NCBI RefSeq assembly: GCF_036250695.1
Contig: NZ_CP109427.1
Location: 3,100,001-3,164,000, forward strand
DNA length: 64,000 bases
Direction of reading: 5' to 3'
DNA from: Streptomyces sp. NBC_01497
GTDB taxonomy: Bacteria > Actinomycetota > Actinomycetes > Streptomycetales > Streptomycetaceae
Shown here: one piece after another, positions 34,210 through 41,358 of the stretch
How positions within the stretch are numbered: the stretch's first letter is position 1
Layout of the letters: the number at the start of each line of letters is the position of its first letter
Translations under genes and position numbers: made by a program
Notes under the pieces: model-generated
The model's database searches: none
Told to the model about the DNA's origin: nothing
The model's input: the letters and a program-made list of their open reading frames with translations, nothing else

Positions 34210-35844
34210 TCACTCCCACTCGATGGTGCCCGGCGGCTTGCTCGTCACGTCCACGACCACGCGGTTGACCTCCGCCACCTCGTTGGTGATGCGCGTCGAG
34301 ATCTTCGCGAGCACGTCGTAGGGCAGACGCGACCAGTCCGCCGTCATCGCGTCCTCGGACGAGACGGGGCGCAGCACGATGGGGTGCCCGTACGTCCGTC
34401 CGTCACCCTGGACACCGACGGAGCGGACGTCCGCGAGCAGCACGACGGGGCACTGCCAGATCTCACGGTCGAGGCCGGCGGCCGTCAGCTCCTCGCGGGC
34501 GATCGCGTCGGCGTCGCGCAGCAGGTCGAGCCGCTCGCGCGTCACCTCGCCGACGATCCTGATGCCGAGGCCCGGGCCGGGGAACGGCTGCCGCTGGACG
34601 ATCTCCTCCGGCAGGCCGAGCTCCTGGCCGACCATCCGGACCTCGTCCTTGAACAGCTCCCGCAGCGGCTCGATCAGCTCGAACTCGATGTCGTCCGGCA
34701 GACCGCCCACGTTGTGGTGCGACTTGATGTTCGCCGTGCCCGTGCCGCCGCCGGACTCGACGATGTCCGGGTAGAGCGTGCCCTGGACGAGGAACGCGAC
34801 GTCCTCGCCCTCCGCACCCGCCTCGGCGACGATCTCGGCCTGCGCCTGCTCGAAGACACGGATGAACTCACGGCCGATGATCTTCCGCTTCTGCTCCGGG
34901 TCGGAGACCCCGGCGAGCGCCCGCAGGAACCGCTCGGACGCGTCGACGACCTTCAGCTGTACGCCCGTCGCCGCGACGAAGTCCTTCTCGACCTGCTCGG
35001 TCTCGCCCTTGCGCATCAGGCCGTGATCCACGTACACGCAGGTCAGCTGGGAACCGATGGCCTTCTGCACGAGCGCGGCCGCGACCGCCGAGTCCACACC
35101 GCCGGACAGCCCGCAGATGGCGCGCTTCGTGCCGACCCGCTCACGGATCAGCGCGACCTGCTCCTCCACCACGCTGGACGTCGTCCATGTCGGCTCGATA
35201 CCCGCGCCCCGGTACAGGAAGTGCTCCAGCACCTGCTGCCCGTGCGTCGAGTGCATGACCTCGGGGTGGTGCTGGACGCCGTAGAGCTTCTTCTCGTCGT
35301 TCTCGAAGGCGGCGACGGGGACCACGTCCGTGGACGCGGTGACCGAGAAGCCCTCGGGAGCCGCGGAGCACGTGTCGCCGTGGGACATCCAGACGGACTG
35401 CTCGGCGGGCGTGCCCTCGAAGAGCGTCGAACCGGGCTTGGACACGTGCAGCGGGGTGCCGCCGTACTCCCGGGCGCCGGTGGCCTCGACCGTGCCGCCG
35501 AGGGCCTTAGCCATCAGCTGGAAGCCGTAGCACATACCGAAGACCGGGACGCCCGCCTCGAACAGCGAGCTGTCGAGGCTCGGCGCGCCGTCCGCGTACA
35601 CCGACGAGGGACCGCCGGACAGGATGATCGCCTTCGGCCTCTTCGCCAGCATCTGGGCCACCGGCATGGTGGACGGCACGATCTCGCTGAAGACCCGCGC
35701 CTCGCGGACGCGGCGGGCAATGAGCTGGGCGTACTGGGCGCCGAAGTCCACGACCAGGACCGTGTCCTCGTGGGCGCCGCCGGTGGCGGCTGCGCCCGCG
35801 GCGGTGTCGGCGGCGGTGGCGGCGGTGGGTGGTACTGCTGGCAC
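34210..35844 (-). CDS. guaA: GMP synthase (glutamine-hydrolysing)
   Basis: The 544-residue enzyme converts XMP to GMP using ATP and glutamine. A class I glutamine amidotransferase domain holds [19 protein letters not shown], the catalytic Cys in [12 protein letters not shown] (near residue 104) and the His/Glu of QHHPEV (near 194). The ATP-pyrophosphatase domain has the P-loop [12 protein letters not shown] near 248, followed by the dimerisation domain ending [15 protein letters not shown] 35844 is chosen because GGAAGG lies seven bases upstream; it gives about 20 more N-terminal Ala/Thr-rich residues than is usual. Purine genes guaB and guaB3 are 15-18 kb to the right. Confidence 0.96.
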
Positions 35845-36107
35845 GGGGCGGCCTTCCGGCGGTATGGCGGGGTGATCGGTAAAGTCGGTCGGTGCTCCCG
35901 ATTCTACCGGCGCCGGGCGACGAGCCGTCCGTGAGCCGTGCGTCCCGGGACCGCCCCCGGTCCGTGAACCGCGGACCCCGCGACCGCCCCCGGCCCGTGT
36001 GCCGTGCGCCCGCACCCGCCTCCCGGTCCGTGGTGCCGTGTGCCGTGCGCCCGGGACCGCTCCCGGCACTCCGCCGCCCTCCCCTGTCTCATCATGCGAG
36101 CGGCTCT

Positions 36108-36137
36108 TTGATCCCCGGCCGCCGCCTGGTCCATACT
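36108..36137 (+). promoter_or_regulatory. promoter of the chorismate mutase leader transcript
   Basis: TTGATC (36108-36113) and CATACT (36132-36137), 18 bp apart, look like a principal-sigma promoter. The predicted start point, seven bases beyond the -10, falls on the A of the leader-peptide ATG at 36144. Confidence 0.6.
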
Positions 36138-36143
36138 CGACGC

Positions 36144-36215
36144 ATGCGCGAGCACTCGACCTTCCTCTTTAGCTATGGCACCGGCCAGTCCGGGTGCCAT
36201 GGTCGTGCTGCTTGA
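36144..36215 (+). CDS. putative leader peptide with Phe/Tyr control codons
   Basis: A 23-codon frame reads [20 protein letters not shown] followed by RAA and TGA. The segment Phe-Leu-Phe-Ser-Tyr (36162-36176) uses TTC, TTT and TAT; TTT and TAT are rare in this genome, which would sharpen stalling. No ribosome site precedes it, and the predicted transcription start is its ATG, so translation would be leaderless. The control codons match the end products of the enzyme encoded 127 bp downstream. This is inferred from sequence only. Confidence 0.65.
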
Positions 36216-36271
36216 GCTGACAAGCGACTTCCGAAAGCGCCCCGGACCGGCACGGTCCCGGGGCGCTTTCG
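36175..36271 (+). promoter_or_regulatory. candidate ribosome-mediated attenuator of the chorismate mutase gene
   Basis: Pause hairpin: ATGGCACC (36175-36182) pairs with GGTGCCAT (36193-36200). Terminator: CGAAAGCGCCCCGGACC (36232-36248) pairs with GGTCCCGGGGCGCTTTCG (36254-36271), with one bulged base. Alternative antiterminator: GTCCGGG (36188-36194) can pair with CCCGGAC (36241-36247) in the terminator arm, and this pairing excludes both other stems. A ribosome stalled on the Phe/Tyr codons would cover the 5' arm of the pause hairpin and favour antitermination. Confidence 0.62.
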
Positions 36272-36341
36272 CTTTCCGGGCCCGACCCGCACCCCGGGGC
36301 TCCACCACCGCGCCGTACGCACCCCACGGAGGAGCACCCAC

Positions 36342-37349: not shown

Positions 37350-37376
37350 GTCGGTGTCGTGCGGGGCGCCGCCGGA

Positions 37377-39494
37377 TCAGCCGTCGCCGGCCCCGGCCCC
37401 CGGCCCGGTCGTGCGGGTCGCGTCTTCGGCCCCGGCCTCCTTCGTCCCGTTCCCACGCGTCGCCTTCGGGACCTTCGGCATCTCCACGAACGGCAGCCGC
37501 AGCGCGCCGAACGCCTCCGCCGGCACGACCGGCGACTTCGGCTCCACCGCCCGCAGCCTCGCGTACGCCTCGCCCTGCACGGGCCGTTCGTCGGCGTCGC
37601 CCTTGTTCGGCCAGAGCGACATCGCACGCTCCGCCTGCGCGGTGATCGTCAGCGCCGGGTTGACGCCCAGGTTCGCGGAGACGGCGGAACCGTCGACCAC
37701 CGAGATCCCTGGATGGCCGTGGATGCGGTGGTACGGATCGATCACGCCCTCCTGCGCCGAGGCGCCGATCGGGCAGCCGCCCAGGAAGTGCGCGGTCAGG
37801 GGGGTGCCCATCAACTCGCCCACGTTGCTGCCCGGGAAGCCGTTGATCTCCTCCGCGATGAGCGACGCCGCGCGGGACGCCTCGGGGATCTGCTTCGGGT
37901 TGGGTTCCCCGCGCCCCTGGCGCGCGGTCAGCAGGCCCTTGCCCGGCCCGCTCGGCTTGCGGTACGTGGTCAGGGAGTTGTCCAGGGACTGCATGACCAG
38001 CCCGATGATCGTCTTCTCGGACCAGCGGTGGTTGGACAGCGACCGCAGCATCAGCGCGGGGTGCCGGGCCGCGTGGCCGAGCCAGGCCCGTACCCGGTGG
38101 TCGCTGTGCGGGACCTGGAGGATGGACAGCGCGCCCATCGCGTTGGAGCCCCTGCCGTAGCGGACCGGTTCCACGTGCGTGTGCTCGTCCGGGTAGATGG
38201 ACGAGGTGATCGCCACGCCCCGCGTGAAGTCGGCGCGCTCGGCGCCGTGCCGCTCGCGGTAGCGGCGGTCGTCGGTCTGCGCGCCCACCAGGGCCTCGGA
38301 GTTCGTCCGGGTCAGCTCGCCGAGCCGCGGGGACAGCCGGGGCAGCAGTCCCCGGTCCCGCATCGTGTGCAGCAGGGTCTGGGTGCCGTACGTGCCCGCC
38401 GCGATCACCACGTACCGCGCCCTGAGGGTGCGGTACTTGCCGCTGCGGCGCCGGGCGTCGGTGGGGACGGTGACGACGCGGTGGCCGCCGTCCTCGTGCT
38501 CGGTCACGGCGGCGACGGTCGTCATGGGGTGGATGACGGCGCCCGCCCGTTCCGCGAGGTACAGGTAGTTCTCGGTGACCATGTTCTTCGCGCCGTGCCG
38601 GCAGCCCGTCATGCACTCGCCGCACTCGGTGCAGGCGTTGCGCTCGGGGCCGACGCCGCCGAAGTAGGGGTCCTGGACGCGGGCGCCCGGCGCGACCGAC
38701 TTCGCCGCCTCGCCGGGGCTCCGCGCGCCCCCTCCGGCCGTGCTGTCCGTGCCGTCCGCACCGGCCGTCGCGCCGGGGCCGCCGGAAACGGCCGTGCTGT
38801 CCGCGTCACCGTCCCGGCCGTCGCCGAAGAACACGCCCACCGGGGCGAGCCGGAACGTGTCGCCCACGCCCATCGCCTCGGCAGCCGCCTTCAGGTGCAC
38901 GTCGGAGGGGGTCATCGTCGGGTTGGTGCGCACCCCGAGCATCCGCCGCGCCTGGTCGTAGTACGGGGCAAGTTCCTGGTGCCAGTCGGTGATCGACGCC
39001 CACTGCGGGTCCGCGAAGAAGGCGGGCGGCGGCACGTAGAGGGTGTTGGCGTAGTTGAGCGAACCGCCACCGACCCCCGCGCCCGCCAGCACCATCACGT
39101 TCCCCAGCAGGTGCACGCGCTGGATCCCGTACAGGCCGAGCGCCGGTGCCCACAGGTAGTTCTTCACGTCCCAGGAGTTCCTGGGCAGGGTGTCGCGGGT
39201 GAAGCGGCGGCCCGCTTCGAGGACCGCCACCCGGTAGCCCTTCTCCGTCAGCCGCAGCGCGGCCACCGAACCGCCGAACCCGGAGCCGACCACGACGACG
39301 TCGTAGTCGAGGTCCCCGGGGTCGGGACCGGCGCCTTCACCGCTGCCGCCCGTACGTGCGTCCCGCTTCGACCGCCCGGCGGGAGATCCCTGCCGGGGGC
39401 CCGGCTCGCGTCCGGCGGACTTCCGGCCGGCCGCCTCGCGTGTGGCGGACTCCTCCGCTGGGGACTCGTCCTCGGGGAACTGTTCCGTGGGCAA
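37377..39494 (-). CDS. GMC-type FAD oxidoreductase, cholesterol-oxidase-like, with Cys cluster
   Basis: The 705-residue flavoprotein has a disordered N-tail (1 to about 60) and the FAD motif DYDVVVVGSGFGGSVAALRL. The GMC signature region is LAGAGVGGGSLNYANTLYVP. The C-terminal active-site segments are AHFLGGCPIGAS (His) and GVNPALTITAQAERA (Asn). Between them, ACTECGECMTGCRHGAKN has C-x2-C-x2-C-x3-C, which looks like an Fe-S ligand set and recalls ChoD-type mycobacterial proteins. It should oxidise a hydroxyl group on a sterol-like or other alcohol. The aldehyde dehydrogenase gene lies 64 bp upstream on the same strand, so the two may act in sequence. Confidence 0.87.
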   Translation of the reverse strand: MPTEQFPEDESPAEESATREAAGRKSAGREPGPRQGSPAGRSKRDARTGGSGEGAGPDPGDLDYDVVVVGSGFGGSVAALRLTEKGYRVAVLEAGRRFTRDTLPRNSWDVKNYLWAPALGLYGIQRVHLLGNVMVLAGAGVGGGSLNYANTLYVPPPAFFADPQWASITDWHQELAPYYDQARRMLGVRTNPTMTPSDVHLKAAAEAMGVGDTFRLAPVGVFFGDGRDGDADSTAVSGGPGATAGADGTDSTAGGGARSPGEAAKSVAPGARVQDPYFGGVGPERNACTECGECMTGCRHGAKNMVTENYLYLAERAGAVIHPMTTVAAVTEHEDGGHRVVTVPTDARRRSGKYRTLRARYVVIAAGTYGTQTLLHTMRDRGLLPRLSPRLGELTRTNSEALVGAQTDDRRYRERHGAERADFTRGVAITSSIYPDEHTHVEPVRYGRGSNAMGALSILQVPHSDHRVRAWLGHAARHPALMLRSLSNHRWSEKTIIGLVMQSLDNSLTTYRKPSGPGKGLLTARQGRGEPNPKQIPEASRAASLIAEEINGFPGSNVGELMGTPLTAHFLGGCPIGASAQEGVIDPYHRIHGHPGISVVDGSAVSANLGVNPALTITAQAERAMSLWPNKGDADERPVQGEAYARLRAVEPKSPVVPAEAFGALRLPFVEMPKVPKATRGNGTKEAGAEDATRTTGPGAGAGDG

Positions 39495-39558
39495 ACTTCC
39501 GGCCTCCCTCTCGGCATCACGGCGGGCGGGCGCGCCACGCTCGGGCGGCGCGCCGCGC

Positions 39559-41358
39559 TCAGCGCAGGCGCAGCGCCTTCATCGCCCGCAGGCTCCGGCT
39601 CATGAACTGCGCGTAGGCCTCGTCGTCCATGCCGAACGACGGGGCGAGCGGCATCAGGCGCTGTCGCGCCACCGTCTGGACCTCGGTGAACTTGTGGATC
39701 CCGTCGGCGCCGTGGCGCCGGCCGAGCCCCGAGTCCTTCATGCCGCCCATGGGCGCGCGGACGCTGCCGTAGGCCGCCGCGTACCCCTCGTTGATGTTGA
39801 CCGTGCCGGTGCGCAGCCGCCGGGCCACGTCCTGGCCGCGCCGGGCGCTCCTGGTCCAGACACTGGCGTTGAGGCCGTAGGCTCCCTCGTTGGCGCGGGC
39901 GAGCGCGTCCTCGTCGTCGCGGAAGCGGTAGACCGACACGACCGGTCCGAACGTCTCGTCCGCGCAGACCGCCATCGGCGCCTCGACCCCGTCGAGGATC
40001 GTCGGTTCGTAGAAGTAGGGGCCGATGTCGGGGCGCGCGGTGCCGCCGGCGAGGACCGTGGCGCCCTTGGCGACGGCCTCCTCGACGTGCGCGCTGACCG
40101 TGTGCAGCTGGCGTTCGCCGACGAGGGAGCCCATGTCGGCGCCGAACGCGAGCGCGGAGCCGAGGCGCATCGCCTTCGTCCGGGCGACGAACCGCTCCAC
40201 GAAGGCGTCCGCCACCGACTCGTGGACGTACAACCGCTCGATGGAGACGCACAGTTGACCGGCCGACGAGAAGCACGCCCGGACCGCGCCCGCCGCCGCC
40301 TTCTCGACGTCGGCGTCGGCGAGGACGAGCATCGCGTTCTTGCCGCCCAGCTCCAGCGACACCCCGACGAGACGCTCCGCCGCGCCGCGCGCGACCTCAC
40401 GGCCGGTACGGGTCGATCCGGTGAACGACACGTAGTCCGCGTGCCGCACGACCTCGGGCCCGACGACCGGGCCCTCGCCCAGGACCACCTGGAGGACCTC
40501 CGCCGGCATCCCGGCCTCGATCAGCAGTTCGCGGGCCCACAGCGCGGTCAGCGCGGTCTCGGAGTCCGGCTTCATCACGACTGCGTTGCCGGAGACGAAG
40601 GCGGGCAGCGCGTCCCCGACGGAGAGTTCGAGCGGGTAGTTCCACGGCACGATCTGGCCGACGACGCCCTTCGGCTGCCGCAACTCCGTGACCTTGGTCA
40701 GCGTGGGTACGACGCCGGTGCGGTGGCGGGGCCTGAGGTAGGTGTGCGCGGCGCGCCCGTAGTGCCGGGCCTCCACGGCGAGGCCCTGGACCTCTTCGTG
40801 CGCGTGCGCCCTGGCCTTGCCGGTCTCCAGCTGGATCAGGTCGAGCACCTCGGTCTGCCGGTCGAGCAGCAGGTCGTGGAAGCGCAGCAGGACGGCGGCG
40901 CGCCGCCGCACGGGCAGGGCCGCCCAGGCCGGCTGCGCCGCACGGGCGCGTTCGAAGGCCGTCGCGACGTCCTCAGGCGTGGAGGCGGGCAGTTCCGCCA
41001 GCACCTCCCCCGTGTACGGGGTGTGGCTCACGGTCCGTCCTGAGCCGACGACCCCCCTCGCGAGCCGGGCCACCAGTTCGGGGGTGACCACGTCGGACGC
41101 GGCACGGGCGGCGACGGTGGGCCGCGCCACCGGGTTGGTGCCCGGGGCGGTTGCGGCCTCTGCGGGCTCGGGTGCGGCCGTCCCGGCGCCGGTCGTGCCG
41201 CTCCCGGTGACCTCGTCATCGGTGGCCGTGCCCGCCAGGGCATCCGCCGCCCGGGTCCCGGCCGGGGCATCCGCTGCCGCCTGCGCCGGAGGGACGTCCG
41301 GTACGTCCGCGGTCCGCTCGGCGGACGCCGCTGACTTCGTCGACTCTGAGTCCGTCAT
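39559..41358 (-). CDS. aldehyde dehydrogenase (succinate-semialdehyde dehydrogenase-like)
   Basis: The 599-residue protein has a low-complexity Ala/Thr/Gly-rich N-terminus (about 85 residues) before a full NAD(P)-dependent aldehyde dehydrogenase fold. The nucleotide-binding motif is FTGSTRTGREVARGA, the general-base Glu is in LELGGKNAMLVL (near 335) and the catalytic Cys is in SAGQLCVSIERLYV (near 369). The GQLC variant and overall pattern match the GabD2/succinate-semialdehyde group. It begins at 41358 and is followed 64 bp later by the GMC oxidoreductase gene, suggesting an alcohol-aldehyde-acid pathway. The exact substrate cannot be told. Confidence 0.88.
   Translation of the reverse strand: MTDSESTKSAASAERTADVPDVPPAQAAADAPAGTRAADALAGTATDDEVTGSGTTGAGTAAPEPAEAATAPGTNPVARPTVAARAASDVVTPELVARLARGVVGSGRTVSHTPYTGEVLAELPASTPEDVATAFERARAAQPAWAALPVRRRAAVLLRFHDLLLDRQTEVLDLIQLETGKARAHAHEEVQGLAVEARHYGRAAHTYLRPRHRTGVVPTLTKVTELRQPKGVVGQIVPWNYPLELSVGDALPAFVSGNAVVMKPDSETALTALWARELLIEAGMPAEVLQVVLGEGPVVGPEVVRHADYVSFTGSTRTGREVARGAAERLVGVSLELGGKNAMLVLADADVEKAAAGAVRACFSSAGQLCVSIERLYVHESVADAFVERFVARTKAMRLGSALAFGADMGSLVGERQLHTVSAHVEEAVAKGATVLAGGTARPDIGPYFYEPTILDGVEAPMAVCADETFGPVVSVYRFRDDEDALARANEGAYGLNASVWTRSARRGQDVARRLRTGTVNINEGYAAAYGSVRAPMGGMKDSGLGRRHGADGIHKFTEVQTVARQRLMPLAPSFGMDDEAYAQFMSRSLRAMKALRLR

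Follow-up and report, generated by a model that had tools for sequence, protein, structure and literature searches.

The chorismate mutase (CM) gene of Streptomyces sp. NBC_01497 is preceded by an element that is almost certainly a translated, leaderless leader frame with aromatic codons and a terminator, and that very probably serves as a ribosome-mediated transcription attenuator sensing charged tRNA-Phe and tRNA-Tyr. The latter function is proposed from comparison of sequences and their predicted folds. Attenuation is a known kind of regulation, here with unusual breadth: within the sampled part of the class, leaders of this shape stand before CM in ten families and before DAHP synthase in nine. 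What is new here is a covarying stem at the leader's stop codon, placed at the tip of the antiterminator, for which no earlier description was found. "The window" refers to the whole 64,000-nt stretch of DNA that was analysed (contig NZ_CP109427.1, positions 3,100,001 to 3,164,000), and coordinates are positions within it (Table 1).

Table 1. Features of the leader and its neighbouring genes in the window
Feature	Position	Strand	Basis and remarks
guaA, GMP synthase, divergent neighbour	34210-36069	-	Pfam GATase and GMP_synt_C; start position approximate
-35-like hexamer TTGATC	36108-36113	+	Read directly; 4/6 match to TTGACA
-10 hexamer CATACT	36132-36137	+	18 bp past TTGATC, 6 nt ahead of ATG 36144
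Leader peptide frame, 23 codons and TGA	36144-36215	+	Read directly
Control codons Phe TTC 36162, Phe TTT 36168, Tyr TAT 36174	36162-36176	+	Read directly
Protector (pause) hairpin, core 36175-36200	36172-36203	+	Wholly within the leader frame
Composite antiterminator	36188-36247	+	GUCCGGG 36188-36194 with CCCGGAC 36241-36247, inner pairs, stop-codon stem
Stop-codon stem UGCUUG/CAAGCG	36209-36226	+	36209-36214 with 36221-36226; covariation; antiterminator apex
Terminator hairpin, weak U-tract	36232-36271	+	-34.6 kcal/mol, z -6.5
Shine-Dalgarno-like GGAGGAG of CM	36328-36334	+	Read directly
Chorismate mutase, AroQ type, 104 aa	36342-36656	+	Pfam CM_2, NCBIfam NF005894 and TIGR01808, all above cut-off

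A sequence-only reading of this DNA had claimed a promoter (TTGATC-18 bp-CATACT) before ATG 36144, a 23-codon frame with aromatic codons including TTT and TAT, and a chorismate mutase downstream. The promoter hexamers were read at exactly the bases claimed, the coordinates of the frame proved right to the base, and the enzyme was borne out by Pfam, by NCBIfam and by its resemblance to solved intracellular CMs (PDB 2qbv and others). The neighbouring guaA is divergent, so the hairpin is not the terminator of a gene upstream. At the leader, simple consensus scans of the E. coli type returned no sigma-70 promoter and no U-tract terminator, and pattern alone therefore proves neither. The whole leader (36144-36341) folds with a z of -3.2. 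No match to any of 4227 Rfam families, T-box included, was obtained in the 64 kb at gathering thresholds. Elsewhere in the window, a 748-aa open frame (37359-39605, forward strand) lies antisense to a cholesterol-oxidase-like gene (37377-39494, reverse strand; below the curated cut-off) and is taken as the usual effect of high GC.

Both the gene and its leader are conserved. CM is present in 195 of 199 sampled genus genomes and in 51 of the 61 in the family sample. Among the CM matches in these samples, the 58 best-scoring loci were read, and the leader lies upstream of CM in 57, the exception (L005) being a contig edge; the core UUUA[CG]CUAUGGC is invariant in all 57. Leader counts were made with R2, a covariance model built without the terminator, which matches 195 of the 199 genus genomes at E <=0.001 with a single match per genome and finds none in genomes G008, G073, G103 and G152. 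R2 has one strong match in the genome of the window, the leader itself (2.5e-16), and the runner-up is at 0.44. Tallies from another covariance model, R1 (195/197 and 130/296), were not used as leader counts because the terminator dominates that model. R1 matches at L143, L145, L147-L151, L154 and L155 were rejected because they are hairpins of terminator type beside other genes and lack an aromatic leader.

Scanning named genomes with a sequence pattern returned at least 120 stretches, of which the 80 listed come from Streptomyces and one Actinacidiphila; a strain recorded as S. griseus (NCTC13033, L248) is among the carriers of the leader. Among these listed matches, CM follows the leader in 75 of the 75 loci with enough room (61 recognised by a strict expression and 14 by a looser one), five stretches being too short; guaA is divergent in 76 of 80, the terminator is found by expression in 77 of 80, and the leaderless -10 spacing holds in 78 of 80. 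The sequence-only reading had tied its proposal to conservation of the leader frame and stems in relatives, and the leader, its aromatic codons, the leaderless promoter spacing, the protector hairpin and the terminator are indeed conserved across the family and, with altered sequence, in other families. Past the control codons, the protector loop of leaders L040-L060 (mostly from other genera of the family) often contains a Trp codon, in GTGW.

For wider comparisons, a set of 114 leaders was used, comprising 61 from the window's family, 21 others ahead of CM and 32 ahead of DAHP synthase. All 114 have a NANNNT hexamer 6 or 7 nt ahead of an in-frame start codon, against 403 of 9706 control start codons (4.2%), a figure that rises to a chance level of ~15% since for each leader the best candidate start was chosen, from 3.7 on average. 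A Shine-Dalgarno-like sequence precedes the start codon in two of the 114. From the -10 spacing, transcription in the window would start at 36144, on the leader ATG itself. A detector that requires five features together (a start codon with a -10 at 6 or 7 nt, a short ORF, an aromatic core, a hairpin and a terminator) accepts 114 of 114 leaders, which were chosen partly on some of those features. In the control, made up of 80 named loci from the same bacterial family as the window, it gives five matches in 1,203,014 strand-bases, or 0.00125 per 300 nt. Two of the control matches, on the minus strand of L246 and L292 (~5198 and 6513 on that strand), are similar short frames, VKSRPSPFLFRSVGRVATA and VKRRPAPFFLRSVGSAATA, which may lie antisense to a conserved gene close to the chorismate mutase locus.

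The control codons are strongly skewed towards codons that are rare in the same loci. Among the 72 Phe codons in 28 downstream genes of these loci, two are TTT, and among the 89 Tyr codons one is TAT. TTT serves as the last Phe control codon in 104 of the 114 leaders, and TAT as the last Tyr codon in 86; these totals include the 61 family leaders, located by an expression that itself holds both codons and that fitted 57 of 58 loci, and the counts outside the family are 43 and 25 of 53, respectively. UAU lies at the base of the hairpin and may be kept by pairing, whereas UUU lies outside it. In four leaders (L004, L056, L060 and L108), a 1-nt insertion alters the C-terminus of the peptide and the aromatic codons are retained. 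The choice of amino acid also varies with the gene controlled. CM supplies Phe and Tyr, and DAHP synthase supplies Phe, Tyr and Trp; Trp is among the control codons in eight of nine DAHP-synthase families versus two of ten CM families (Fisher p 0.0055, the families being partly dependent). For the view that the codons act through the amino acids they specify, this correlation is counted the best evidence.

The pause hairpin of the sequence-only reading, here termed the protector, is real by folding: its core has -14.4 kcal/mol (z -1.8), and with its base -19.3. The protectors of 40 leaders are on average more stable than synonymous-codon shuffles (mean z -1.37), with 11 of 40 at p<0.05, and the window's own is not exceptional (p 0.20). 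Pairing of the three bases that follow the last aromatic codon is seen in 35, 37 and 39 of the 41 representative folds. In other families, the protector is rebuilt from other base pairs, a comparison that is partly circular as the pairs come from each fold. The strong terminator that had been claimed is likewise a real hairpin, of the energy given in Table 1, and lacks a canonical U-tract. Its pairs covary in the family: over protector and terminator together there are 18 double-changed cells, all of them in the terminator, and none of 500 shuffles reaches this. In other families, a U-run follows a comparable hairpin in L115, L136, L202 and L205.

Between the two hairpins lies the stop-codon stem. 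Its 5' side takes in the final sense codon and the stop codon's first two bases, with the partner segment 15 columns further on in 40 aligned family sequences. In this alignment, 89.2% of cells are paired and 25 are double-changed; none of 500 shuffles, which ignore kinship, reaches either value, and two of five covariation measures, double-change pairs (2) and pair types (9), are at shuffle level. Slid versions of the stem are paired in <50%. Stem types include UGCUUG/CAAGCG, UGUCUG/CAGACA, GCCUG/CAGGC, UGUGUG/CACACG and GCAUG/CAUGC. The window's stem folds at -5.7 kcal/mol (z -2.5); individual stems seldom beat shuffles, and family leaders L060 and L110 show none. Outside the family, no stem better than shuffles was seen in f16, f14, f10, f26, f28, f4, f6, f37 and most leaders of f19 and f30, with isolated support in f48 (L167), f33 (L153), f20 (L173), f30 (L203) and f40 (L205). 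Because many other-family leaders show none above shuffles, the stem is claimed for the window's family only.

The earlier proposal of a 7-bp alternative pairing stands in part. GTCCGGG and CCCGGAC are exact complements, and their pairing excludes both the protector and the terminator hairpins, but the covarying stop-codon stem had been missed, and the 7 bp are the base of a composite antiterminator, because post-stall RNA folds as one long hairpin. For this folding, the Tyr codon was placed in the A site, with the ribosome edge assumed, after E. coli, to lie 11 nt past that codon. Of the 45 distinct family segments, 44 adopt the composite fold, versus 20.5 expected with the spacer shuffled. 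Covariation at the antiterminator base was sought in the family and not found, and RNAalifold applied to the 45 post-stall segments returned weak outer pairs only (-5.8 kcal/mol consensus), without the stop-codon stem. When native pairings were compared with swapped ones, all 41 representatives, related sequences included, gave p 0.017; when a single leader stood for each family, the native pairings were no stronger than swapped ones (median p 0.27). In eight representatives, the automatic protector was misplaced and the segments were set by hand. Since the terminator (-34.6 kcal/mol) exceeds the antiterminator (-26.2) in stability, the switch must be kinetic. Taken as a family structure, an antiterminator with the stop-codon stem is supported by these comparisons, and as a mechanism it appears plausible.

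From these parts we infer a start site, ribosome positions, a switch and a response to amino acids. Transcription would begin on the leader start codon, and ribosomes would load onto the leaderless end. With ample Phe and Tyr, the ribosome would reach the stop codon and open the stop-codon stem; the protector would re-form behind it, the antiterminator would be blocked, and the terminator would stop the transcript before CM. If charged tRNA-Phe or tRNA-Tyr were scarce, the ribosome would stall at UUU 36168 or UAU 36174 and cover the 5' arm of the protector. The freed 3' arm of the protector, zipped onto the stop-codon stem, could then take the 5' arm of the terminator before the 3' arm exists, and with that 5' arm captured, the polymerase would continue into the CM gene. 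The sequence-only reading had proposed ribosome-mediated attenuation, which finds support in the conservation of the leader and in a codon content that tracks the position of the downstream gene in the pathway.

Leaders of this shape extend well beyond the genus. There, 62 genomes have a CM match (E <=0.001, with the window protein as query); 20 upstream regions were fetched, one of which is a contig edge. In 16 of the 19 readable loci, CM is preceded by a short leader whose core is aromatic (e.g., FFYG or RFYGGR). No aromatic leader is visible among these 19 in L161, L165 and L169, all of family f6, which have either lost it or come under different control; the other two f6 loci read, L164 and L174, do carry one. 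R1 led to five further CM leaders among the 62 genomes (L113, L114, L140, L146 and L153) and also to leaders ahead of DAHP synthase. Fifty DAHP-synthase loci were read, of which 49 were readable and one was a contig edge. A leader is present in 27 of the 49, in families f4, f10, f19, f26, f28, f29, f30, f33 and f40, and none is recognisable in the other 22 (L185, L187, L188, L190, L192, L194, L195, L200, L201, L214, L217, L220, L221, L223 and L226-L233), which belong to f11, f14, f16, f20, f21, f22, f23, f31, f37 and, in one case, f28.

Both genes were read in five genomes (G427, G436, G498, G509 and G556, from families f14, f16 twice, f23 and f37), and in all five the leader lies on CM and none on DAHP synthase. 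The 27 genomes whose DAHP synthase has a leader all lack a CM match at E <=0.001 with the window protein as query, a search that a more distant CM would escape. R2 is weak on distant leaders (seven matches at E <=1 over 70 loci, six of them at leaders), and because it recognises so few, the case for relatives in other families depends on upstream regions read by eye. The shared shape, plus like wording of the spacer in f1 and f19, suggests that the CM and DAHP-synthase leaders may be homologous; convergence is possible. A fuller reading is offered tentatively, its prospects falling a little short of even: an ancient actinobacterial attenuator would sit on CM or DAHP synthase, its codons retuned between Phe/Tyr and Phe/Tyr/Trp, and in the window's family its antiterminator would have been built round the leader's stop codon.

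Among other explanations of the element, a rather unlikely one keeps the leader and its codons and makes termination dependent on assistance by Rho or NusG, or places part of the control at the level of mRNA decay. The few U residues in the terminator tail and the lack of covariation at the antiterminator base would agree with this, whereas a stem of -34.6 kcal/mol with pairs that covary in the family, and the U-runs that follow the hairpin in the four other-family relatives named above, speak for the hairpin itself. It is improbable that the element is a constitutive partial terminator with a translated leader and no physiological regulation. Data on regulation of the CM gene were not found in the open-access papers searched, as a passive element would allow; however, selection for rare UUU and UAU, codon content matched to the downstream gene and a covarying third stem would be unexpected in such an element.

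Two further readings set charged tRNA aside. Were the element an arrest peptide or a functional small protein, its effect would come from the nascent chain, and a conserved C-terminal GCHGRAA in many genus leaders could be read in that way. The same stretch, however, encodes the protector and stop-codon stems, the 1-nt insertions change the remaining peptide and keep the aromatic codons, leaders of other families have little in common beyond the aromatic core, and the identity of the aromatic residues tracks the downstream gene, all of which makes a peptide function highly improbable. A metabolite-binding riboswitch or T-box RNA that overlaps a short ORF by chance is scarcely credible. The near-invariant core inside the family, UUUACCUAUGGC, is what such an RNA might show, but Rfam gives no match at gathering thresholds, the sequence differs outside the family while the codons, the placement of the hairpin and the leaderless start persist, and all 114 leaders have a start codon at the predicted 5' end. 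Ribosome-mediated attenuation remains the preferred reading of the element.

The nearest known case is the aroR leader of aroF in Corynebacterium glutamicum, for which Neshat et al. 2014 is reportedly the original paper. Another is pheL, the enterobacterial pheA leader, with a Shine-Dalgarno start and a run of Phe codons. Priority for the CM leader is not certain, and a comparative study of attenuators is said to have come from the Lyubetsky group in 2010. According to the accessible part of a review (PMC11802643), aroR precedes the DAHP-synthase gene aroF and is responsive to Phe, with Tyr being without effect; the leader was predicted in PMC4046766, as far as the accessible text of that paper goes. 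As described in these partial texts, aroR resembles the window leader in being an actinobacterial leader peptide (with Phe-Tyr-Phe codons) ahead of an aromatic-pathway gene, and differs in that its gene is DAHP synthase, the window's being CM; the two are set side by side by description. The DAHP-synthase leaders of other families may be relatives of aroR. Given this precedent, a response of the window leader to Phe alone is a serious alternative to one that includes Tyr. The accessible part of the same review describes pheL as attenuating a CM-containing gene by way of charged tRNA-Phe (PMC11802643), which is like the window in pairing a leader and attenuation with such a gene and unlike it in phylum.

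In Streptomyces lividans, Droste et al. 2021 report leader peptides for alaS, ilvB, thrS, trpS, leuS, leuA, trpE and metN (PMC8079986). These are, in the accessible text, leaders of amino-acid genes, mostly reported as leaderless and with the same proposed logic as the window's; unlike the window, the list of eight in that text holds no Phe/Tyr or CM leader. Published maps of transcription start sites and Term-seq 3' ends report 79 premature units in S. griseus (PMC8914203) and 150 in S. clavuligerus (PMC8269248). The uORFC-13-1 motif, located before aroF and described in the accessible part of PMC8632094 for Acholeplasma and environmental sequences only, shares with the window a uORF with Phe codons, a terminator and the aromatic pathway, and differs in having a ribosome-binding site. 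In Actinobacteria, Seliverstov et al. 2005 found no conserved RNA structures before phenylalanine and tyrosine operons, according to the accessible part of that paper (PMC1262725). A description of the CM leader was not found in the open-access papers searched, nor in the accessible portions of PMC5784534, PMC1173090, PMC13236596, PMC4833913 and PMC2965389.

If the stop-codon stem acts as proposed, a ribosome that finishes the leader would directly dismantle the antiterminator, which would add a checkpoint to the classical protector. The stem is a directly testable extension of the classical attenuation model, and the 114 leaders represent a natural data set on the evolution of attenuator codons and helices. 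In antibiotic producers, such an attenuator would help to account for the partition of chorismate between Phe/Tyr and Trp, and it would give a simple handle on the supply of aromatic precursors.
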